A DNA stretch of 64,000 nt from contig JAGVRJ010000001.1 of the NCBI GenBank assembly GCA_019059635.1, positions 124,001 through 188,000 of the forward strand. Direction: 5' to 3'. Positions 18,347-41,399 of this stretch are shown here, piece after piece (the first letter of the stretch is position 1; each line of letters starts with the position of its first letter). Under the pieces are notes generated by a model. That model was not told the origin of the DNA and ran no database searches. It saw only the letters and a list, made by a program, of their open reading frames with translations. A program made the position numbers and the translations under genes. Source of the stretch: Proales similis (taxonomy: Eukaryota > Rotifera > Eurotatoria > Ploima > Proalidae).

Positions 18347-19399
18347 CTAAAAGCAGCCTTTGAATGAATAGATTTGTCTGAACTGACGGTTGAAGACGTA
18401 ATAATGGAAAAAGTGAAATCCATGGTAGATGAACAAAAGGGCAAACGAGATAAGCTCGAATATGGTCATAGACAGACTTTGCACAGATTTGAACTGAATT
18501 AGAATGTAGAATATTGTGTAGGGAGTGCTGAGCAGTATGTAGCTGAAACTCATGCACACAGTCATCCGAGTCAAACTGTTGTTGCTGTTGGTCTTTTTGT
18601 TTGCTTGCCGATTGTTGCTCGTTTTGGACGGCACCGGATTCGACAGATTTGGATTTGAAGCATTTTGATTGGCGCCGGTCTCTTCGGTTGCTCGACTCTT
18701 GCTGCCTCCACGCAGGATCTTCTTGCGTGTTAGGAGCCGCCTAAAGTTCAGCACTGTGGCCGAATTGATAATCAGTAGAAGAACCAAAGTGCCGGGGCCC
18801 CGAATGATGCCAAGCATTGACAGAATCAGGCGACTGGCCTGTGTCTCGCCGAACGCGTTCGGCTCGAGCGCGAAGCCGATCCGAGTCGAGTTGGCTCCTC
18901 TTTCGGTGTCGGACAGCTGCACTTGCACTATGCGCTTGGTAAACAGCTCCGGCGTGTAGTAGACAAGCGAGACGAGGCCGATCGGGATGACGATGCGCCA
19001 GAAGCGCAGCTTCTCAAACACCTTCACGTTGGACACAATCAGGAACCGCTGCACCGATATGGTCAAGTCGATCAGGATGTTGAAGATGGCCATGCAGCTG
19101 GTCAGGTAGGCGTCAACGACAATCAAGTAGAGCTGACTGACGTAGCTTGTGCTGAACTGGCACCATGAAGCTTTGCATCGACTCAGGAAAAATAGAGAGA
19201 TGAACATCAAATAGAACAGATCAACCAAAGAGATGAGCTTCATGAACTTGAAGATCTCATGCTCTAGTTTGAGTCTTATGAAGCCCAGGATGCAAAGAGA
19301 GTTGGTGAAAATGCCCAAAAGACAAATGACCGGGACCACATAAACCCAGAATATGGTACGAGCCTCATCTAGTCCCGAATCGCTCGACGTCAAATTCAT
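18347..19399 (-). CDS. Rhodopsin-type GPCR, orphan (paralogue 1)
   Basis: Intronless, 350 residues, with seven hydrophobic segments: TM1 after residue 18 (VYVVPVICLLGIFTNSLCIL), TM3 TSCMAIFNILIDL, TM4 IVIPIGLVSLVYY, and TM6/TM7 in MTVCMSFSYILLSTPYTIFYIL and FALLFIYHGFHFFHYYVFN. The usual DRY at the end of TM3 reads Q-R-F, and TM7 has no normal NPxxY. The third intracellular loop is Asn/Ser-rich. It is a likely peptide receptor of a lineage-specific expansion; the ligand is unknown. Bases 18795-19108 are an inverted near-copy of 21830-22143 in paralogue 3, while the rest of the two genes has diverged. Confidence 0.85.
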   Translation of the reverse strand: MNLTSSDSGLDEARTIFWVYVVPVICLLGIFTNSLCILGFIRLKLEHEIFKFMKLISLVDLFYLMFISLFFLSRCKASWCQFSTSYVSQLYLIVVDAYLTSCMAIFNILIDLTISVQRFLIVSNVKVFEKLRFWRIVIPIGLVSLVYYTPELFTKRIVQVQLSDTERGANSTRIGFALEPNAFGETQASRLILSMLGIIRGPGTLVLLLIINSATVLNFRRLLTRKKILRGGSKSRATEETGANQNASNPNLSNPVPSKTSNNRQANKKTNSNNSLTRMTVCMSFSYILLSTPYTIFYILIQFKSVQSLSMTIFELISFALLFIYHGFHFFHYYVFNRQFRQIYSFKGCF

Positions 19400-21532: not shown

Positions 21533-22573
21533 ATGAATTCCAGTCAAGAAGCGGAAGCGCTAGACTCTGTTACATTGGCTTATCTACTCTTTTGGCTTTA
21601 TATTTCGCCGGTGATTTCATTACTGGGAGTAATTGCCAATTTTCTTTGTCTGCTTGGCTTTTGGAAACTCCGGCTCGAGCATGAAATCTTCATGTTCATG
21701 AAGCTCATTTCTCTGGTTGATCTGTTCTACCTAATATTCATGGCCTTGTCATTCTTGCCAAGATGCCAGCCGTGGTGTCGATTCAGCGATGACTATTTGG
21801 TGCAACTCTACTTGCTTACAATCGATTATTACCTGACCAGCTGCATGGCCATCTTCAACATCCTGATCGACTTGACCATATCGGTGCAGCGGTTCCTGAT
21901 TGTGTCCAACGTGAAGGTGTTTGAGAAGCTGCGCTTCTGGCGTATCGTCATCCCGATCGGCCTCGTCTCGCTTGTCTACTACACGCCGGAGCTGTTTACC
22001 AAGCGCATAGTGCAAGTGCAGCTGTCCGACACCGAAAGAGGAGCCAACTCGACTCGGATCGGCTTCGCGCTCGAGCCGAACGCGTTCGGCGAGACACAGG
22101 CCAGTCGCCTGATCCTGTCAATGCTTGGCATCATTCGGGGCCCTGTCTCGCTTGTGATTCTCTTGATTGTCAATGCGGGCACCATCATTCAGTTCCGATC
22201 GCTTCTTGAAAGGAAGAAACGGCTGAGAGGAGGAGGAGGAGCATCTCATTCCGGCCAGTCAACTGTAACAACAAACCAGACCACCGAATCAGCTTTAACT
22301 GAGAGCAGAGCCAGAACTAAACCATCAGATTCTAACACAAACAGCTTAACTTTGATGACTGTGTGCATGAGCATTGGATACATAATTCTGAGCACTCCCT
22401 ACACCATATTCTACATCTTGTCGCAGTTCCTGTCCACCCAGGTGGTCGGCATGGTGATATTCGAAATAATCTCCACGACGCTTCTGTTTGTCTATCATGG
22501 ATTTCATTTCTTCTACTATTACGTGTTTAATCGTCGATTTCGTGAATTCTACAATCTTCTCAAATGCATGTGA
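21533..22573 (+). CDS. Rhodopsin-type GPCR, orphan (paralogue 3)
   Basis: Intronless, 346 residues. Same plan as paralogue 1: TM1 region VISLLGVIANFLCLLGF, TM3 ending ISVQRF, TM4, a long second extracellular loop containing two sequons or near-sequons, a Ser/Thr-rich third intracellular loop, and a C-terminus with VYHGFHFFYYYVFNRRF. From the middle of TM3 through TM4, the second extracellular loop and the start of TM5 (bases 21830-22143) it is 312/314 identical to paralogue 1, with both differences synonymous. Outside that block the proteins differ widely. This indicates recent gene conversion over a ligand-facing part of the receptor. Confidence 0.85.
   Translation: MNSSQEAEALDSVTLAYLLFWLYISPVISLLGVIANFLCLLGFWKLRLEHEIFMFMKLISLVDLFYLIFMALSFLPRCQPWCRFSDDYLVQLYLLTIDYYLTSCMAIFNILIDLTISVQRFLIVSNVKVFEKLRFWRIVIPIGLVSLVYYTPELFTKRIVQVQLSDTERGANSTRIGFALEPNAFGETQASRLILSMLGIIRGPVSLVILLIVNAGTIIQFRSLLERKKRLRGGGGASHSGQSTVTTNQTTESALTESRARTKPSDSNTNSLTLMTVCMSIGYIILSTPYTIFYILSQFLSTQVVGMVIFEIISTTLLFVYHGFHFFYYYVFNRRFREFYNLLKCM
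21830..22143 (+). repeat. 314-bp inverted near-identical block, copy in GPCR 3 (partner 18795-19108)
   Basis: I compared this block base by base with the reverse complement of 18795-19108. There are two mismatches (Arg CGT/CGC and Ile ATC/ATT, both silent). Identity drops at once outside both ends. It is best explained as a gene-conversion tract. The two arms lie about 2.7 kb apart in opposite orientation, so they could also promote inversion of the segment between them. Confidence 0.9.
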
Positions 22574-22991: not shown

Positions 22992-24413
22992 ATGAGGAAA
23001 ATTTACTCGGCTTCAATTTTCTTTTGCGGTGCCCTAGTGTTCCTCTACGCCCAGCTTCCGCCAAGCTCATTAAGTAATAATGATTTCACTATGGATTCAA
23101 AAGGACCACACGAAAAAAACGTGCCCGAATACATGAAACAGGTCGACTGCCAGGCCCTTTTCGAGCGTGACCACGAAGCTATCCGTCACGCAGAGCAAGT
23201 GCGCGACAGACTGGTCGAGCAGAACGCCACTCATGTTCCGCTCGAGACCTTCCTCCAAGTGAAACACAAGTGCGACCTGTTCAAGAGACAAGCCGGCTAC
23301 GGCCGCTTGCCGGTCACCGACTTTGAGCTGCAGTTCCCGTTCGCCTTCTCCATCATGTTCAACCTGGACGTAGCCCAGCTCGAGCGGCTTCTCCGCCTCA
23401 TCTGGCGCCAGCACAACACCTACTGCATTCACGTCGACGTCAAGGTACAGCCCGAGGTGTATGCCGCAGTGCAGGCGATCGTCTCTTGCTTCGACAACGT
23501 GTTCTTGGCCACCAAGCGAGAGGATGTGATTTGGGGCGGGTTCACTCTGCTGCAGGCCGATCTCAACTGCATGTGGGATCTGCTCAACATCCACAACGAG
23601 ACCCATCTGCGACTTCATCGCGAGTCGTTCGAGGGCAAGCGGTTCAATCAGCTGCAGTGGAAGTATGTGCTGAACGTGCCGGCGACCGAGATGCCCCTGA
23701 AGACGAATCTGGAAATGGCGAAGGTCATGCGCATGTTCAATGGAGGCAGTGATGTCTCCGTAGACTGGAACTTTGATACTAAATCCAGATATTTGACAAG
23801 AGTTTCATATTACAATGACGATAATGGTCAACTCAAAATGAATTGGGATTCAGAGGAGCCCAATGACCCGCCGCCTTTCAATCTGACCATTTTCAAAGGA
23901 TATACGAATGGAATATTCAGTCAACCGCTGGTTCATTACACTTTCCATGATCACAGGGTTCAGGAATTTTACTCCTGGGTTAGGAGAATGAGACATCCTG
24001 ATGAGTCGTGAGTTTCTTTCAAACTTTCTTCTATTAGTTCTTAATGGCCATTCGGTTCTAGCTTCTGGCAGACAGTTTTGTTGAACCCGGTTCTGGAAGC
24101 GCCAGGGCAGTACAGAAATACGAGCTCGCCTGAGAGCAACTTCTTTCGCCGATTCTCCTTGTGGGCAGAATGCAATGGGCAAAATAGGAACGCAATCTGC
24201 ATTCCTACCATCAAAGACATGCCTTTCTTCGCCGAGCGACCCCATTTCTTCATCAACAAGCTGCTGCTCAGCTACGACCCGGTCACCTTTGGCTGCTTTG
24301 AGCAGCTCTATGAGAATCGCACTCGTGGTCAAATGCCTGTCAGCATGGACACTTACTGCAAGATGATTGTTCCTCGCTTCGACAATTCCCTTTGCGGATT
24401 AAATTTTCCGTAA
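22992..24413 (+). CDS. Core-2/I-branching beta-1,6-N-acetylglucosaminyltransferase family (GT14), copy 1
   Basis: Two exons (22992-24007 and 24062-24413, intron 54 bp) encode 455 residues. It is a Golgi type II membrane protein: short N-terminus, signal anchor (IYSASIFFCGALVFLYA), stem, then the GT14 catalytic domain. Family motifs are CQALFERD, IRHAEQVR, FPFAFSIMFNLDVAQLERLL, YCIHVDVK, FLATKREDVIWGG, QADLNCMWDLL and the acceptor-region WKYVLNVPATEMPLKTNLEM. These enzymes add branching GlcNAc to O-glycans or lactosamine chains. The start at 22992 is preferred over the in-frame ATG at 22968 because its context matches copy 2. Bases about 23140-23755 are nearly identical to copies 2 and 4. Confidence 0.9.
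23140..23755 (+). repeat. GT14 near-identical core block, copy 1 (partners about 28139-28754 and 40129-40743)
   Basis: About 615 bp that differ at only a few sites among the three full-length GT14 genes, flanked on both sides by sequence that is hard to align at the DNA level. The block is visibly richer in G and C than its flanks. It encodes the first two-thirds of the catalytic domain. Best read as a gene-conversion tract shared by dispersed paralogues. Confidence 0.85.
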
Positions 24414-24564
24414 TAAATTGTGATTTGCCTTGAATTATGACGTTCATGTGAGGCAATGCGAGCTGATTACCGACAAGCTTCGATTTATTTCACATGCCTG
24501 AGTGTTTGGAATGCTTGAGCATAGAGTAATTGAGTCAATCTGAAAGAGGACGGGCGGGGAGAAT

Positions 24565-27500
24565 CTAGAGGAAAAGGTATCGTCTGCCGAGCGCGGACTC
24601 TGAATGGCTGGTTCTCTCGAACTCGCCCTTGAGATCTATGGGTAATAGCTGCCTGGTCTGATTGCTGCTGGAAACAGTGTAGTTCAATATGCCGGTTGAG
24701 ACGCTGCTCGGGAAAAACACGCGCGGACTGTAGCCGGTCGGATGCATGTGCTGGGCGCGATTCAAACTGCGACAGTCCCTCACTGGCTCTACTTGCTTGT
24801 TGATCCCGTACGTGTTCGTAGTGCCCATCTCGAAGGCTGCCTTTGATACAAACAGAACTGAGCATGCGCTTGCGCTCTTGCCCATCAGACCACTGAACGC
24901 CGCATGTTTACGATGGAGAGCGTCTCCACCTTGCTTTCGGCTGTTGAATATCAGCTCACCGCCTTTGATTATACCGCATGGCTTAACAGCAAAAAACTCT
25001 GGCTGCCAAAGAACTAGATCGGCCATTTTGCCCGGTTCTATTGAACCAATGGCGTGTGAGCATCCGGCAACCGCGGCCGGGTTTATGGTACACTTGGCCA
25101 AGTATCTCTTTACTCGTTCATTATCTGTCGAAGTCGAGCTACTGGTGAAGCGCATTTTCTTCATTTGATCTGCCGTCTTGATCGCTTTTCGAATCAAATC
25201 CATGTCTAGATTGGCCTGAAGAACCGCTCTTGCGTCAAGTATTTCGCCAAGTTTCTGATTAGCTGTCTACCTTTTGTTCGGAGGCAAATGACGAAGTGGT
25301 CAGAACGCTCACTATGCCCAGCTCGTGAAGGTACTTTTCAATGTAGGCAGACTGAGCAAGACTGGCTGAAGATGAACAAATTAGATTGGGCTGAGTCAAC
25401 AGCTCTTGGAAGAAGCTGGACGAGATAAGACGCGGATGCAAGGGGATGCAGGCCACTTTGGTCTTGATTAGACTCTGCAGTTCACTCGAGAAAGAGGCGC
25501 ATGTCTCATGCGATGTGTCCATGTCGATCACCGCCTATCGGTGAACCGTCACTCTTAGAGACTAAATGTTGACTCGCAATACAATCGCTTACCATGACGT
25601 CATGGAAATCAGCAACACGAAGGCAAGAATCTATAGAAGCTGGTGAGACTCCGTACGCTTCGCTGAGTCTTAGCCTTCAATTAAACAGGTCGAAAAATTG
25701 AACGATTCAAGTTATAAACAGCCGCTAGGTTGGTTACCCGGCTGCTCCGGCAACGAGCTGATCTTCAACCTCTTTGGGCATTTCAAACGAGGCCGCTCCA
25801 GGCGAATGACTTGATGAGCTGTTTGCTTTGGCATAGAATCCGAAGTTGATTGGAATGTGGTCTGTGGCTTGGATCATGTATTTGAGATGGTTCGGTCCAG
25901 AAGAGCAGTCAGAGGATATGGAGTATCCGCCGCCGCCTCCGAACATGCTCGTCACTCCCGACAGTAGGGCGTTCTCCAGCATCTCTCGGGAGCCGTCCAC
26001 ATAGGTGCCCAAGTCAATAGCACCGGGCGTGCAAATTAGACCTTCGCCGTTGATCACCTCGGTGCCGACGCCCACCACAAGATCGGGAGTAATGTTCATG
26101 GTGTGTGGATTGCCGGCCTTGCCTACACCCTGAATGATGCCATCTCTGATGCCAATGTCGGCTTTGATCACCCCGACCAGGCTGTCGATTATAACCACAT
26201 TGGCGATGACCGTATCCAAAGCCACATCGTTACGCACGCCCCAGGTAACTGCCATTCCTTCTCTTGACGACTATGGCTCGTATTAGCCGACGTTTCGAAA
26301 GCAATTCTCATGAGTTTTCATTTGTTACTTTTCCCACTCCGATGGTCAACTCTTCGCCGTAGAGTAAGAAATCGCGTTCAACTTCGACAACAAGGCTAGT
26401 GTCACCGAGCAATATCTGAAAATCGTCGAGATTGCTACTCGGTCGATTGTAATCGGTAATTAAAAATTTTGAATTTACCGTGTCTCCTTTGGTCGGGCCG
26501 TATCGTTGAGCGTAGATTTCTCGCGGCATCCGACTCAGCTCGATGAGCTGCTCTCTGGCCTCCCTACTCAAGTTCAACTCGTCTTGCTGTTTGTTGAGGA
26601 AGCTCTTTCGGCCCAATTTTCTCAGCACTCGTTTGAGACTGTCGTCAGCAACCGCTCCGTCCGCAAGCTGATTACCTCCTCTGATCACCCTAGTCGGACG
26701 GCGAGAAGGTTAATTGTAAAATATCGAGCTGATGCGTGCTGTGAACAAAGTGTCAACCTACCGAGTTCCCGCAATTGGAACAATTGGAATGACTTTGCTC
26801 GCCTTGGCCTCGATCTCAATGCTGTCTCCCGAAGGGATGTTCTTTAAATAATTATTTAGAAATTCTTAAATGAGAGAAACTTGATGTTAGACTAACCGGA
26901 CGCATTCCAAACGAAAGTGATCTGTCAAACTCGAGAGATTTGCAAGCTTCAATTAAATTGAAATGACTGCCCAAACGGACCGATTGACTGCCAGTGTTGG
27001 TGATGTGAAGAAATTTCGACTCTCCTCGACTGGTGTTCAAATGGACCATCGTGCCAATCTGTCCACTCATATTGTGCGCCTCAGAGCCGACCTCTTGAAC
27101 GTCGTCGCTAATTTCACCTTCGTCGAGAGCTTCAACAAGCGGCGCCTCGCTGGTCACTATTCGGCCGGGAATCAGGGCCTCTTGGTTGGCAGGGAATAGC
27201 GATTTGTCAGGAATGGGTAAGAAACTTCCGTGAAGAAGAAGCTCGAGGTCTCCGTCTTCGCTAGTGATCGGATCTTCGACGCACACCGATTCGGTTCCGT
27301 CGCTAAATTCTACGGTAAGACTCAGCTCGACGAAAAGCTTGTCCACACCCGGCATTACCAGACGCCTGCCAAGCATCCGTTTGGCTCTTTCAATAACCAT
27401 ATCTGACCTGAGCCCTTCTCGGGCCATTTCGTATATCTGAATGAGGCCAAAGAGCTAAACAATCGAATTCAATGGCCGAATAGACAAACAGGAACCGACC

Positions 27501-27625
27501 TGGCTGGTGAGAAGGGCGACACTTTCGATATAATTGAGCTTTATACCCCGAGCAAGGCGGCGTTGGGCTAGAAAGCCCGCCGAGTGAGCAAGCAGGCGTT
27601 GAATTTCAACTTCATTTAATTTCAT
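24565..27625 (-). CDS. Urease-like protein, gamma-beta-alpha fusion, catalytic site lost (pseudoenzyme)
   Basis: Nine exons (27625-27500, 27454-26897, 26841-26762, 26689-26479, 26415-26329, 26270-25738, 25674-25593, 25534-25271, 25215-24565) join in frame to 863 residues, the size of a plant-type urease (840). The gamma part ([19 protein letters not shown]), beta part ([23 protein letters not shown]) and alpha scaffold ([37 protein letters not shown]) are all there. Compared with jack-bean urease, the nickel ligands are gone: AIDCHVH reads AIDLGTY (His407 to Gly, His409 to Tyr), the carbamylated Lys490 is Arg534 in GLRLSEAYG, His519 is Asp563, His545 is not conserved, and Asp633 is Ser640. 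About 40 residues including the flap CHHLDR are missing. It cannot be an ordinary nickel urease; its role is unknown. Confidence 0.88.
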
Positions 27626-27991
27626 TTTTATTTTATCAATTTATTTAATTGGTCTTGCACTGCAACTTTCAACATTCACATGCGAACTATTTTCACTGAG
27701 AAAGAAAAGCGGTTAAAACTTGACAATACTGCTTATAAAGAAACTAGAATTAAATACGGGACAAATTAAATGGAGAATAGAAACAGAACGAAGAAAAGAG
27801 CAGAAAAGTAGGGGAACTTGTAACAGATGGCTAAACGGCATCGCAACTCGTAGACTGAATTTAATTTTAATAACAATTACAAAAGCAATTTAAATATACA
27901 CAGGTTGAAAAGGCCGGCTTAAAAACCATGCGATCTGACGACTGGAAGGCACCACTTATATGGAAGAAAAACATTAAAGTTCAAGTTGAAA
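27626..27991. promoter_or_regulatory. Divergent intergenic region, urease-like gene and GT14 copy 2
   Basis: 366 bp, AT-rich, lying between two genes reading outward, so it should serve as promoter for both. No TATA element in a good position stands out. Confidence 0.4.
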
Positions 27992-29423
27992 ATGAAGAGA
28001 ATATTTATTTATTCACTAATTCTAAGTAGTGTGCTGATGTTCCTTGTCGGCATTTTGTTGCCGAAGACAAACGATAATCAAGTGGTAATAAGGACAACCT
28101 TGGAACCAGAGAATGTTGGCATGTCCAGATACATGAAACAAGTCGACTGCCAGGCCCTGTTCGAGCGTGACCCAGGAGCTATCCGTCACGCAGAGCAAGT
28201 GCGCGACAGGCTGGTCGAGCAGAACGCCACTCATGTTCCGCTCGAGACCTTCCTCCAAGTGAAACACAACTGCGACCTGTTCAAGAGACAAGCCGGCTAC
28301 GGCCGCTTGCCGGTCACCGACTTTGAGCTGCAGTTCCCGTTCGCCTTCTCCATCATGTTCAACCTGGACGTAGCCCAGCTCGAGCGGCTTCTCCGCCTCA
28401 TCTGGCGCCAGCACAACACCTACTGCATTCACGTCGACGTCAAGGTACAGCCCGAGGTGTATGCCGCAGTGCAGGCGATCGTCTCTTGCTTCGACAACGT
28501 GTTCTTGGCCACCAAGCGAGAGGATGTGATTTGGGGCGGGTTCACTCTGCTGCAGGCCGATCTCAACTGCATGTGGGATCTGCTCAACATCCACAACGAG
28601 ACCCATCTGCGACTTCATCGCGAGTCGTTCGAGGGCAAGCGGTTCAATCAGCTGCAGTGGAAGTATGTGCTGAACGTGCCGGCGACCGAGATGCCCCTGA
28701 AGACGAACCTGGAAATGGCCAAGGTCATGCGCATGTTCAATGGAGGCAGTGATGTGTCGGTGAACAGGAAATTTTATATCAAATCCAGATATTTGAATAA
28801 AGTTGCATACTTCAATGATAACGATGGCCATCTCAAAATTAAAGCTACAGCGGAACTTAATGACCCGCCGCCTTTCAATCTGACCATTTTCAAAGGATAT
28901 TGCAACGGAGTATTTAGCCAAGCCCTTGTTCACCACGCTTTCTACGATCAAAAAGTTCAGAGGCTGTTGACCTGGATGAAAGGAATGTACATCCCTGACG
29001 AATCGTGAGTTTCAATCAATCTGTGTTTATATTTCCGTCGACAGTTTATTCATGATCTTTCATGTTCAAAGCTTCTGGCAAACCATTTTGTTGAATCCCG
29101 TGCTGGAAGCGCCAGAGCCGTACAGAAATACGAGCTCGCCTGAGAGCAACTTCTTTCGCCGGTTTTCATTGTGGTCACGCTGTAACGGGAAGAGAAGACA
29201 CGCAATCTGCATTCCAACAATCAAAGACATGCCTTTCTTCGCCGAGCGGCCCCATTTCTTCATCAACAAGCTGCTGCTCAGCTACGACCCGGTCACCTTT
29301 GGCTGCTTCGAGCAGCTCTACGAGAATCGCACTCGTGTGCAAATGCCAGTCAGCATGGACACCTACTGCAAGACGATTGTGCCTCGCTTCGACAATTCCC
29401 TTTGCGGATTAAATTTGCCGTAA
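27992..29423 (+). CDS. Core-2/I-branching N-acetylglucosaminyltransferase family (GT14), copy 2
   Basis: Two exons (27992-29004, 29072-29423) encode 454 residues with the same plan as copy 1: a signal anchor (IYSLILSSVLMFLVGIL), a diverged stem, the near-identical catalytic core (bases about 28139-28754), a diverged middle part after GGSDV, and a conserved C-terminal exon ending NSLCGLNLP. All GT14 motifs listed for copy 1 are present. The frame is open upstream without an ATG, so 27992 is the start. It lies immediately right of the urease-like gene, which separates it from copy 1. Substrate specificity cannot be told; variation sits in the stem and just after the conserved core. Confidence 0.9.
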
Positions 29424-32424: not shown

Positions 32425-33918
32425 TCACTCGGTCGGTGGCAACAAGTCCTCGAATTCAATCAGCGGCGGCTCTTTTCTCAGCATTTTGTCCGACAGGTCC
32501 ACCCCTAGACTGTGAGAGTTGTTGCAGATTGTGATGTACTCGTGCAAGGTCCTTTTTGTGCATTTGGCGATGAAGCGTATAAACGGCTTGATGTCGCCTT
32601 GGTTGGCCGCTTCCAAATGCTCGTAGTATTCGAGTCGCTCTTGTTTGAGAATGATCACCGGCGGATAGGCGAGCTTCATGAGGATCAGATTCATCAGTAG
32701 TCTGCCAGTGCGTCCATTGCCATCGTAGAACGGGTGAATCCAAACAAATTTGTAATGGGCCAGAGCAGCGATTTGAACCGGATGAGCGACGTCAAGCAAC
32801 TGTGCCGAAGTGAGCCAGGCTATGAACTCGTTCATGAGACGCGGCACGTGCTCGGGCGGTGGCGGCACATGGTCTCCCACAAAGACCTGATGGTCACGAA
32901 GTCTGCCGGCGCCTGTCGGGTCGGCGAAGCCAAGCACTCGGCGGTGAATTTCGAGTAGATCGTTCAAAGTAAATTCACTAAGCGGCTGATTCAAAAGCGT
33001 GTCGTTCAAATAGCGCATGGCCGAGTCCAGACCGAGCACTTCCTGATGCTCGAGCAGACTTTTGCCGGCAATTGCGATCCGATCTTCCACAATCAGACGG
33101 GTCTGCTTCAGATTTAGCGTGTTGCCTTCGATCGCGTTCGAGTGATAGATGTGCATGAAGTAGGCCTCCTTTTTGGCTCGTCTGAGCGCAGGCGATACGC
33201 TCGGAATGTCGTAGAACTGAGCGAGAAGCACGTCCAACTCGCTCAGCATGTCGCGGTCGAGTTTGCTCACGATCGGAAGTGTGCGCCTCAGATTGAGCCG
33301 CGCCTTGTCATCGTCCGGCTGCATCCTCAGCGCCCGAGAATAAAAGTGCTCGGCTCGCTTTACGTCGTTTGCGTATAGCTCCAGAAACTCGCCGTAGGCC
33401 GTCAGCAAGTCCGTGTTGGTCGGATCTAGCTCGAGCGCGTGGCAGTAGATCTTGCCCGCTTTGTCCAATTTGCCTTCGCTGATCATCTTGATTGCGGCCG
33501 TCATGGCCATGCTCGATTCCATTCGATTCTCGCTCTTGGTCTCTTCTTGCGCTTCTGGTTTGCCTGTCCACTTGATCTCCTCGTCGCTGTGATAGGCCAG
33601 TGACGGAAATGCAACATGTTCGATCGACTTCATCTTCTGACGTCGTTGATCTCGAGCTCTGTATTCGGCTAACGAGTAGGAGGGCAACTGGGGCCATTCG
33701 ACCGGCTGCAGTTGTTGATGCGGCTCGTAAAAATAATTGTAATAGACGAAATTCATGGCGAATGAAAGGAGCGCAAATGTGAGCAGGGTGCCGAGCTGCT
33801 TGAGGGCGCGCTTGAGCTTGTGTTTGAATTTTGGCGACGAGTCGGCCGCTCTCGTCTTTGGCCGTGAGCTTCGCTTGCGTGTCTCGGCTTTTTCGTCGCT
33901 CGCTTTTGCTGTGCTCAT
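32425..33918 (-). CDS. FICD: FIC-domain protein adenylyltransferase (FICD)
   Basis: Intronless, 497 residues. FICD is an ER type II membrane enzyme that AMPylates and de-AMPylates the chaperone BiP, tuning folding capacity to load. Visible features: a Lys/Arg/Ser-rich cytosolic N-terminus, a signal anchor (LGTLLTFALLSFAMNFVYYNYF, about residues 42-63), TPR helices (AGKIYCHALELDPTNTDLL and AEHFYSRALRMQPDDDKARL), the inhibitory helix with the TxxxE(G)N-type element SNAIEGNTL, and the catalytic loop HPFYDGNGRTGRLL with its invariant histidine. All regulatory and catalytic residues look intact. It is a little longer than the human protein (458), mainly in the basic N-terminus. Its start is about 290 bp from the 3' end of eIF3B. 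Confidence 0.95.
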   Translation of the reverse strand: MSTAKASDEKAETRKRSSRPKTRAADSSPKFKHKLKRALKQLGTLLTFALLSFAMNFVYYNYFYEPHQQLQPVEWPQLPSYSLAEYRARDQRRQKMKSIEHVAFPSLAYHSDEEIKWTGKPEAQEETKSENRMESSMAMTAAIKMISEGKLDKAGKIYCHALELDPTNTDLLTAYGEFLELYANDVKRAEHFYSRALRMQPDDDKARLNLRRTLPIVSKLDRDMLSELDVLLAQFYDIPSVSPALRRAKKEAYFMHIYHSNAIEGNTLNLKQTRLIVEDRIAIAGKSLLEHQEVLGLDSAMRYLNDTLLNQPLSEFTLNDLLEIHRRVLGFADPTGAGRLRDHQVFVGDHVPPPPEHVPRLMNEFIAWLTSAQLLDVAHPVQIAALAHYKFVWIHPFYDGNGRTGRLLMNLILMKLAYPPVIILKQERLEYYEHLEAANQGDIKPFIRFIAKCTKRTLHEYITICNNSHSLGVDLSDKMLRKEPPLIEFEDLLPPTE

Positions 33919-34210
33919 TCTCGCCCTCTCTTGATTTACATGTTTTCAATTTTCGATTGGAGAGGCAAACTGTAGGCAGTTGCTTTGATCGCAATCGCAT
34001 CCAGAAATCATGATGATGATGAAGTTTTGTGACGCATTTTCAAACAGCGACCGCACGTTTGTCTGATCGACTCATTTGAAACGCAATTCACGTGCTTTCC
34101 GCTTTTTAAGACGGCCGGCAGCAAAAATGACACTGACTAAAGCTTTACATTTGACTTTGAAGCTCATTTATTTGGCTAATGAGAAATGGACTGACTGTGG
34201 CGAAGCATCA

Positions 34211-37377: not shown

Positions 37378-38126
37378 ATGAAGCAGTTAATCAAGTCATT
37401 GAAAATCTCAACTAAAGTAGTAAAGAAATCCGGCTGCTTGTTGTTTTTCATTTTGCAGCTATTGATTACTTCAATCGTTTACAAAAGATTGATTGCCAAA
37501 CAATCAAAATACCTGGAAATCGAGACCAGCTTCACGGCTTTAACTGTGGATTTCGAATTTTACAGGTCAACTTAATTACCCGCCGCCCTTCAATATGACT
37601 ATATTCAAAGGTTATGGCAATGGGGTCTACAGCCAAGCGCTGGTTCGCCACTCTTTCCACAATCAACGAGTCTTGGCGTTGTTGACCTGGATGAAAGGAA
37701 TGTACATCCCTGACGAATCGTGAGTCTCCATCAAACTTTGTTTTTATTGCCGTCAACAGTTTATTCATGATCTTTGATGTTTCCAGCTTCTGGCAGACAG
37801 TTTTGTTGAACCCGGTTCTGGAAGCGCCAGGGCAGTACAGAAATACGAGCTCGCCTGAGAGCAACTTCTTTCGCCGATTCTCCTTGTGGGCAGGCTGCAA
37901 TGGGCAAAATAGGAACGCAATCTGCATTCCGACCATCAAAGACATGCCCATCTTCGCCGAGCAACTTCAATTTTTCATCAACAAGCTGCTGCTCAGCTAC
38001 GACCCGGTCACCTTTGGCTGCTTCGAGCAGCTCTACGAGAATCGCACTCGTGTGCAAATGCCAGTCAGCATGGACACCTACTGCAAGACGATTGTGCCTC
38101 GCTTCGACAAGTCCCTATGCGGATAA
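37378..38126 (+). pseudogene. GT14 glycosyltransferase pseudogene (copy 3), 707-bp internal deletion
   Basis: It aligns with copy 4. The anchor region (SGCLLFFILQLLITSIVY) and stem up to GTGGATTTC (ends at about 37554) are followed directly by sequence that in copy 4 begins at 40828. So the equivalent of 40121-40827, nearly the whole catalytic core, is missing. The deletion length (707) is not a multiple of three, and a TAA follows within four codons of the junction. Downstream, the end of exon 1 (to 37719), the intron and exon 2 (37787-38126) are almost identical to copy 4, so the duplication and deletion are recent. The ATG of copy 4 is not conserved here either. No functional enzyme can come from it. 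Confidence 0.88.
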
Positions 38127-39958: not shown

Positions 39959-41399
39959 ATGGTTAAAATGCAAGACTGTTTGTTGTTTTTGATTCTTCAG
40001 CTCTTCTTAGCTACCGTCATTTACTATTTCGCATTAAGTCCAAGTTTGGAACCAGCAAAAATTGAATCAACCAAATTAGACCAACTACCAACCAAATTCA
40101 ACGCTTTAAGTGTGGATTTCACCAAACAGGTTGACTGTCAGGCCCTGTTCGAGCGTGACCCAGGAGCTATCCGTGACGCAGAGCAAGTGCGCAATAGGCT
40201 GGTCGAGCAGAACGCCACTCATGTTCCGCTCGAGACCTTCCTCCAAGTGAAACACAACTGCAACCTGTTCAAGAGACAAGCCGGCTACGGCCGCTTGCCG
40301 GTCACCGACTTTGAGCTGCAGTTCCCGTTCGCCTTCTCCATCATGTTCAACCTGGACGTAGCCCAGCTCGAGCGGCTTCTCCGCCTCATCTGGCGCCAGC
40401 ACAACACCTACTGCATTCACGTCGACGTCAAGGTACAGCCCGAGGTGTATGCCGCAGTGCAGGCGATCGTCTCCTGCTTCGACAACGTGTTCTTGGCCAC
40501 CAAGCGAGAGGATGTGATTTGGGGCGGGTTCACTCTGCTGCAGGCCGATCTCAACTGCATGTGGGATCTGCTCAACATCCACAACGAGACCCATCTGCGA
40601 CTTCATCGCGAGTCGTTCGAGGGCAAGCGGTTCAATCAGCTGCAGTGGAAGTATGTGCTGAACGTGCCGGCGACCGAGATGCCCTTGAAGACGAATCTGG
40701 AAATGGCGAAGGTCATGCGCATGTTCAATGGAGGCAGTGATGTTGCCGTTGATTGGAACTTCAATACCCAAGCAAGATATTTACAAAGAGTTTCGTATTA
40801 CACTGATAATGATGGCCATCTCAGAACGAATTTTACAGGTCAACTTAATTACCCGCCGCCCTTCAATATGACTATATTCAAAGGTTATGGCAATGGGGTC
40901 TACAGCCAAGCGCTGGTTCGCCACTCTTTCCACAATCAACGAGTCTTGGCGTTGTTGACCTGGATGAAAGGAATGTACATCCCTGACGAATCGTGAGTTT
41001 CCATCAAACTTTGTTTTTATTGCCGTCAACAGTTTATTCATGATCTTTGATGTTTCCAGCTTCTGGCAGACAGTTTTGTTGAACCCGGTGCTGGAAGCGC
41101 CAGGGCAGTACAGAAATACGAGCTCGCCTGAGAGCAACTTCTTTCGCCGATTCTCCTTGTGGGCAGGCTGCAATGGGCAAAATAGGAACGCAATCTGCAT
41201 TCCGACCATCAAAGACATGCCCATCTTCGCCGAGCAACTTCAATTTTTCATCAACAAGCTGCTGCTCAGCTACGACCCGGTCACCTTTGGCTGCTTTGAA
41301 CAGCTCTACGAGAATCGCACTCGTGTTCAAATGCCTGTCAGCATGGACACCTACTGCAAGATGATTGTTCCTCGCTTCGACAATTCCCTTTGCGGATAA
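39959..41399 (+). CDS. Core-2/I-branching N-acetylglucosaminyltransferase family (GT14), copy 4
   Basis: Two exons (39959-40992, 41060-41399) encode 457 residues. The signal anchor (CLLFLILQLFLATVIYYFA) and stem differ from copies 1 and 2 but resemble the broken copy 3. The catalytic core (about 40129-40743) is again nearly identical to copies 1 and 2, with a few private changes such as RDAEQVRNRL and NCNLF. The segment after GGSDV diverges, and the C-terminal exon is shared almost exactly with copy 3. It ends NSLCG, three residues earlier than copies 1 and 2. All GT14 motifs are intact, so it should be an active Golgi enzyme. Confidence 0.9.

Follow-up and report, generated by a model that had tools for sequence, protein, structure and literature searches.

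Structure and setting of the urease-like gene

The DNA analysed here is a stretch of 64,000 nt from the tiny marine monogonont rotifer Proales similis (hereafter the window), and positions are those of the window unless a contig is named. Its minus strand carries a urease-like gene at 27625-24565, with the start codon at 27625 and the stop codon ending at 24565. An earlier note on this DNA had proposed nine exons and eight GT-AG introns of 45-72 bp that keep 863 codons open. Splicing reproduced this model exactly, although the acceptor of intron 1 was subsequently moved. A CAG acceptor lying 18 nt deeper in exon 2 (CATTCAG/ATATACG) drops a six-residue insertion, LFGLIQ, which by alignment is absent from the plant ureases 4g7e and 3la4. 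Because the alternative acceptor removes this plant-absent insertion, intron 1 is probably 63 bp long, and the corrected model yields a protein of 857 residues instead of the original 863. The features of the gene are as follows.

24565..27625, minus strand: candidate urease pseudoenzyme gene; nine exons, open spliced frame, gamma, beta and alpha domains
27500..27625, minus strand: exon 1, start of the gamma domain (splicing, Urease_gamma match)
26897..27436, minus strand: exon 2, remainder of gamma, linker and start of beta (corrected acceptor; the original model starts at 27454)
26762..26841, minus strand: exon 3, beta domain (splicing)
26479..26689, minus strand: exon 4, end of beta and start of alpha (splicing, Pfam)
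26329..26415, minus strand: exon 5, N-terminal part of alpha (splicing)
25738..26270, minus strand: exon 6, N-terminal part of alpha and first half of the metal core (splicing, profile alignment)
25593..25674, minus strand: exon 7, segment GLRLSEAYG, which reads GLKLHEDWG in active ureases (splicing, profile alignment)
25271..25534, minus strand: exon 8, about 37 flap-region residues missing (splicing, profile alignment, MAFFT)
24565..25215, minus strand: exon 9, C-terminal part of alpha, ending in RRYLFL, which resembles QRYFLF of the bacterial consensus (splicing, bacterial alignment)
24484..24489, minus strand: AATAAA polyadenylation-like signal, 75 nt past the stop (sequence reading only)

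The gamma, beta and alpha scaffolds that had been recognised by eye are borne out by profile searches. The Pfam families Urease_gamma, Urease_beta, Urease_alpha and Amidohydro_1 (PF00547, PF00699, PF00449 and PF01979) all score above their cut-offs; Amidohydro_3 also matches, at a score under the cut-off of that family. The gamma, beta and alpha domains are present in order, which assigns the protein to the urease family by descent, and its top matches in the PDB are the ureases of pigeon pea (4g7e, E 5.3e-145) and jack bean (3la4, E 1.6e-142). A chance likeness to urease is, at this level of sequence similarity, out of the question. Exon 6 (25738-26270) contains an 11-residue in-frame insertion in the barrel before GLRLSEAYG, which neither the two plant ureases (4g7e and 3la4) nor the bacterial profile has. 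In exon 2 (26897-27436), the gamma and beta domains are joined by an acidic linker of about 35 residues that does not align to the plant ureases; it is possible that it forms a new interaction stretch.

Copies of a Core-2/I-branching glycosyltransferase lie at 23122-24355, 28122-29365, 37554-38080 and 40110-41353, and two of them, 5000 nt from each other, lie on either side of the urease gene. The central 300-nt blocks of three copies are 93-98% alike, the other parts are more divergent, and the fourth copy is partial; the flanking pair suggests a recent duplication or gene conversion. Elsewhere in the window, a 431-nt inverted block (18705-19135 and 21803-22233, 88% complementary) lies inside two divergently placed receptor-like open reading frames. 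It sits in the middle of both proteins, the remaining parts of which differ, and is likely a gene-conversion tract. One of these frames gives a weak, sub-cut-off match to the Srw GPCR family; the other has no Pfam match. A Fic-domain protein with TPR repeats, which we take to resemble animal FICD, is encoded at 32425-33945. Rfam and tRNA scans of the 64,000-nt window were empty.

Nickel ligands and flap

Urease is the textbook example of an enzyme that depends on nickel; the ligands of its dinuclear nickel centre are His407, His409, Lys490, His519, His545 and Asp633. Residues are numbered here by the pigeon-pea urease row of the PDB alignment (His 407, 409, 492 and 519; Lys 490; Asp 494), and the ligand and site-lining roles of the compared columns are those of the known urease structure. 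The comparison set consisted of 78 bacterial UreC sequences out of 80 fetched, two having been dropped for length or ambiguous letters. The 80 loci were the best 80 of 551 confirmed relatives, and their UreC sequences were anchored by the YGPT pattern, with Y or F at the first position.

When compared with pigeon pea and the 78 bacterial sequences, five nickel ligands are replaced in the rotifer protein, namely H407G, H409Y, K490R, H519D and D633S, all of them as the earlier note had listed. Further losses in the active site are H492S, D494A, A440S and M637S. Ala636 is the sole column kept of ten active-site columns, at all of which the bacterial sequences keep the common residue (78/78). The positions concerned are the following.

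26001..26009, minus strand: HxH site, His407 replaced by Gly (residue 436) and His409 by Tyr (residue 438); histidine at both in 78/78 bacterial sequences
25656..25670, minus strand: carbamylated Lys490 replaced by Arg (528), His492 by Ser (530) and Asp494 by Ala (532) (alignment)
25523..25525, minus strand: ligand His519 replaced by Asp (557) (alignment)
25436..25438, minus strand: His586, a possible positional equivalent of ligand His545 (fold order; the aligners disagree)
25292..25294, minus strand: ligand Asp633 replaced by Ser (634) (alignment)

In the flap region, 54 query residues stand opposite 91 profile positions, all of them in exon 8, which leaves the rotifer chain about 37 residues shorter. 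The mobile flap with Cys592 and His593 was not recovered; MAFFT alone pairs a stretch KVAC with the flap cysteine. Translation of 24400-27800 in the three minus-strand frames yields no CHH, HHL, GLK, HTD, SSDS or GGGHAP motif. Given the missing residues and the absence of CHH and HHL, the deletion of the flap with its CHHLDR motif, also claimed previously, stands. The accompanying statement that every metal ligand had been lost is slightly overstated because the equivalent of His545 is ambiguous: five of the six ligands are replaced, but the loss of the sixth is unsettled, as His586 may sit in its place.

The case for His586 comes from a fold of exon 8 alone (88 residues, no alignment), which reached a pLDDT of 51 and shows three helices and no predicted strand. 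Its elements follow the order helix, gap, helix, gap, helix, a weak fit to the order expected, and the stretch VACIPLH586 falls in the first gap, the place of the urease strand that ends in His545. Because this stretch occupies the His545-strand place in a low-confidence model, His586 may be equivalent to ligand His545, and one of the six nickel ligands may thus survive. Profile alignment gives no confident match at the His545 place, and MAFFT puts the KVAC stretch on the flap instead of the His545 strand. Pairwise placing of His586 was erratic; it fell on the ligand histidine in 5 and nine residues off in 45 of 64 bacterial segments, these being the segments, of 78 available, that meet both anchor patterns.

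Conservation, frame integrity and the nickel pathway

A column of alpha was counted as near-invariant if at least 97% of the 78 bacteria share one residue there and pigeon pea has it too. All 174 columns obtained in this way lie in two confidently aligned segments, which exclude the flap region; 109 of them are kept in the rotifer protein and 65 are lost. Retention differs among four segments of alpha (chi-square p 0.001): it amounts to 43/54 in the N-terminal part (272-404), 24/46 in the metal core (405-526), 12/30 in the beta-8 region (614-660), which is the least conserved segment, and 30/44 in the C-terminal part (661-796). Losses affect nine of the ten active-site columns versus 56 of 164 other near-invariant columns, 108 of which are kept (Fisher p 7e-4). 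Near-invariant glycines are kept at 27 of 33 positions, compared with 82 of 141 for other residues.

Identity to pigeon pea was compared segment by segment with that of the bacterial sequences, a baseline favourable to the bacteria because the set was picked by likeness to pigeon pea. For residues 272-404 it is 56% in the rotifer, against a bacterial median of 63% and minimum of 58% (n=78). The corresponding values are 38% against a median of 61% for residues 405-526, 30% against 81% for 614-660, and 41% against 57% for 661-796. The gamma end shows 50% identity to pigeon pea across 119 aligned positions and is, together with the N-terminal part of alpha, the best-kept region of the protein. 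As judged from these columns, erosion centres on the metal site, and with 65 of 174 near-invariant columns changed, constraint is clearly lower beyond that site as well.

A barrel that has exchanged its chemistry would be one explanation for such a pattern. The protein would then be a repurposed enzyme working with another metal or with none, through His586, Asp557 and other new residues, a reading with which the profile matches spanning most of the barrel and the histidine that may remain at the His545 place are consistent. However, the protein no longer has the ligand HxH, the bridging lysine or the beta-8 aspartate; the only HxH in the spliced chain, QHMH at residue 797, belongs to the C-terminal part, outside the barrel core; and the beta-8 region retains the fewest columns of all (12/30). 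We consider a repurposed enzyme unlikely.

The reading frame of the gene contains no stops, and 16 of 16 splice-site dinucleotides are intact. Neutral simulations, which started from the present sequence and introduced substitutions only (no indels), yielded a mean of ~13 stops at ~35% amino-acid change, with 0/200 runs stop-free; at 10% change, 2/200 runs were stop-free. Codon preference, trained on 14 neighbouring open reading frames that also served as the comparison set, lies at z 8.8 above random synonymous codons, and the real frame scores best of three. The score itself, 0.034, is lower than that of 12 of the 14 neighbours (range 0.006-0.208), as could be expected if expression were weak or constraint relaxed. 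On the strength of the intact frame and splicing, the codon preference and the localised conservation, we infer that the gene is likely kept under selection.

The reduced conservation of alpha (65/174 columns changed) and a codon preference that 12 of 14 neighbours exceed are also what one would see in a dead gene on its way out, that is, a pseudogene yet to gain a stop or frameshift. Such a gene would be expected to have accumulated stops at the observed level of change, even if indels are disregarded, whereas here GT-AG is kept at 8/8 introns, the 11-residue insertion and the flap deletion are both in frame, and the erosion is focused on the metal site. A dying gene appears, on these grounds, quite unlikely.

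The assembly searched comprises 15 contigs and 32,716,893 bases. Profile searches detected no second urease in it, and hence no intact paralogue of the kind that the earlier note had named as the sign of a recent dead duplicate and a reason to abandon its reading. The accessory genes that it had proposed to look for were not found in the assembly either: UreD gave no match at E 0.001 nor at E 10, and UreG and UreF gave none at E 0.001. NicO, the nickel transporter sought, also had no match. A UreF candidate on contig C13 (E 0.018) was rejected, as it contains an internal stop and lies on the strand opposite an open frame that adjoins a VWA-like stretch (E 3.5e-4, just under the cut-off). Two CobW-type genes were likewise rejected as UreG; their best models are a ZigA-type zinc chaperone and a MeaB-type GTPase, whose cut-offs, set for bacterial proteins, they do not reach, and they would presumably be named ZNG1 and MMAA. 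The helper-gene searches were run exon by exon and find their targets in prokaryote control genomes, the sole positive controls, so that they might overlook a UreD or UreF that has diverged strongly and is split by introns. COX1 was not found in the assembly. Arginase-family matches occur in two pieces at 743044-743806 of contig C12, one of them reading through six stops, as expected for intron-split exons, which suggests that the animal could make urea though no working urease was found.

The evidence comes from one assembly, and the near-identical glycosyltransferase copies that flank the gene 5 kb apart are a possible spot for misassembly. The gene nevertheless occupies 148.6-151.6 kb of a contig 3,837,811 bases long, has short introns and is surrounded by animal-type neighbours (ion channels, receptors, kinases), and base errors would yield frameshifts, not coordinated in-frame substitutions; an assembly or contamination artefact is very unlikely. 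An active urease concealed by a wrong gene model, with alternative exons or splicing that restore the site, is close to excluded: the model was built from sequence alone and one splice acceptor did fit better elsewhere, but the active-site motifs are absent from all three minus-strand frames as described above, the several out-of-frame HxH and HS(D/E) strings all lack a urease-like setting, the ligand codons lie inside exons and away from junctions, and UreD, UreF and UreG were not found in the assembly.

A candidate urease pseudoenzyme and its relation to known systems

Judged by what an active urease possesses, the rotifer protein has five of six nickel ligands replaced, no flap and no maturation proteins found. 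With at most one of the six ligands left, the flap gone and no UreD, UreF, UreG or NicO found, urea breakdown has very probably been lost, and the protein is very likely non-catalytic. The loss of catalytic residues that characterizes a pseudoenzyme affects nine of the ten columns compared in the active site. Most of the chain is covered by sequence profile matches; the sole fold run is that of the 88-residue exon, at a pLDDT of 51. The reading that we prefer, with a probability of roughly two in three, is that the sole urease found in P. similis is a pseudoenzyme that has lost its nickel site and whose body has been kept under selection, likely in a scaffold or binding role. The earlier proposal of a selected non-catalytic protein is well supported in its non-catalytic part by the ligands, the flap and the helper-gene searches, and indirectly in its selected part by frame, splicing, codons and local erosion; the structural, sensor or binding roles that it named are conjectural.

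A course of events can be suggested for such a pseudoenzyme. Our searches of the assembly did not find the nickel-loading genes, and the dinuclear nickel centre and the gating flap are replaced or deleted. The metal site would serve no purpose once nickel could not be loaded, and the losses may have run from the loading genes to the metal site and the flap, with selection holding a folded, probably oligomeric body. In known ureases, parts of the gamma-end and alpha N-terminal type help to hold trimers and hexamers together. Going by where conservation lies, the protein may best be pictured as an oligomeric scaffold or a binding protein; its present role would most likely be non-catalytic and built on the framework of gamma and the N-terminal part of alpha, and the old pocket possibly still binds a small ligand.

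If the lost site is shared by orthologues in other rotifers, these would form an animal protein family not recognised before, and certain 'orphan' ureases elsewhere among animals may be following the same path. Retention of the protein body in the absence of the nickel apparatus would demonstrate a non-catalytic use of urease on which selection can act. Nickel use by orphan animal ureases thereby becomes testable, and in this rotifer the sequence itself gives the answer.

The eukaryotic fused ureases of jack bean (3la4) and pigeon pea (4g7e) share with the rotifer protein the single-chain order gamma-beta-alpha. The rotifer chain differs from them in lacking five of the six nickel ligands as well as His492 and the flap, and in having a longer gamma-beta linker and the 11-residue barrel insertion. 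Among animals, one survey gives Nematostella, sea urchin, Branchiostoma and Ixodes as the only metazoans in which ureases had been found as of 2011 (PMC3073912). A further study reports 'nickel ureases/hydrogenases' in an acanthocephalan and similar sequences in rotifers, which are candidate ureases only (PMC12274423). As of 2009, according to another paper, urease was the only known nickel-dependent enzyme of eukaryotes; Aplysia and sea urchin, which possess orphan ureases, had no known nickel transporters, and the paper describes their nickel use as unclear (PMC2667541). The rotifer protein resembles these orphan ureases in being an animal urease in a genome without known nickel transporters and may differ from them in its metal site, where at least five of the six ligands are gone. 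No description of a urease pseudoenzyme appears among the open-access titles and abstract openings listed, in agreement with the earlier statement that none was known from animals, though one may nonetheless have been published.

A model for such a role is provided by the CRMPs, which in vertebrates coexist with active dihydropyrimidinase. They are animal proteins of the amidohydrolase superfamily that are described as keeping the barrel fold and the tetramer without dihydropyrimidinase activity; CRMP-4 has two of six metal-binding residues, and its bridging lysine is replaced (PMC4051505). CRMPs and the rotifer urease thus belong to the same superfamily and show a similar loss of metal residues. 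The CRMPs are related to dihydropyrimidinase and the rotifer protein to urease, and the CRMPs persist beside an active enzyme, whereas no active urease was found in the rotifer assembly. On balance, we think it probable that this is the first urease pseudoenzyme, in which an animal lineage would have given up nickel, lost the genes for loading it and retained the body of urease for a new, non-catalytic role, as the CRMPs did with respect to dihydropyrimidinase.
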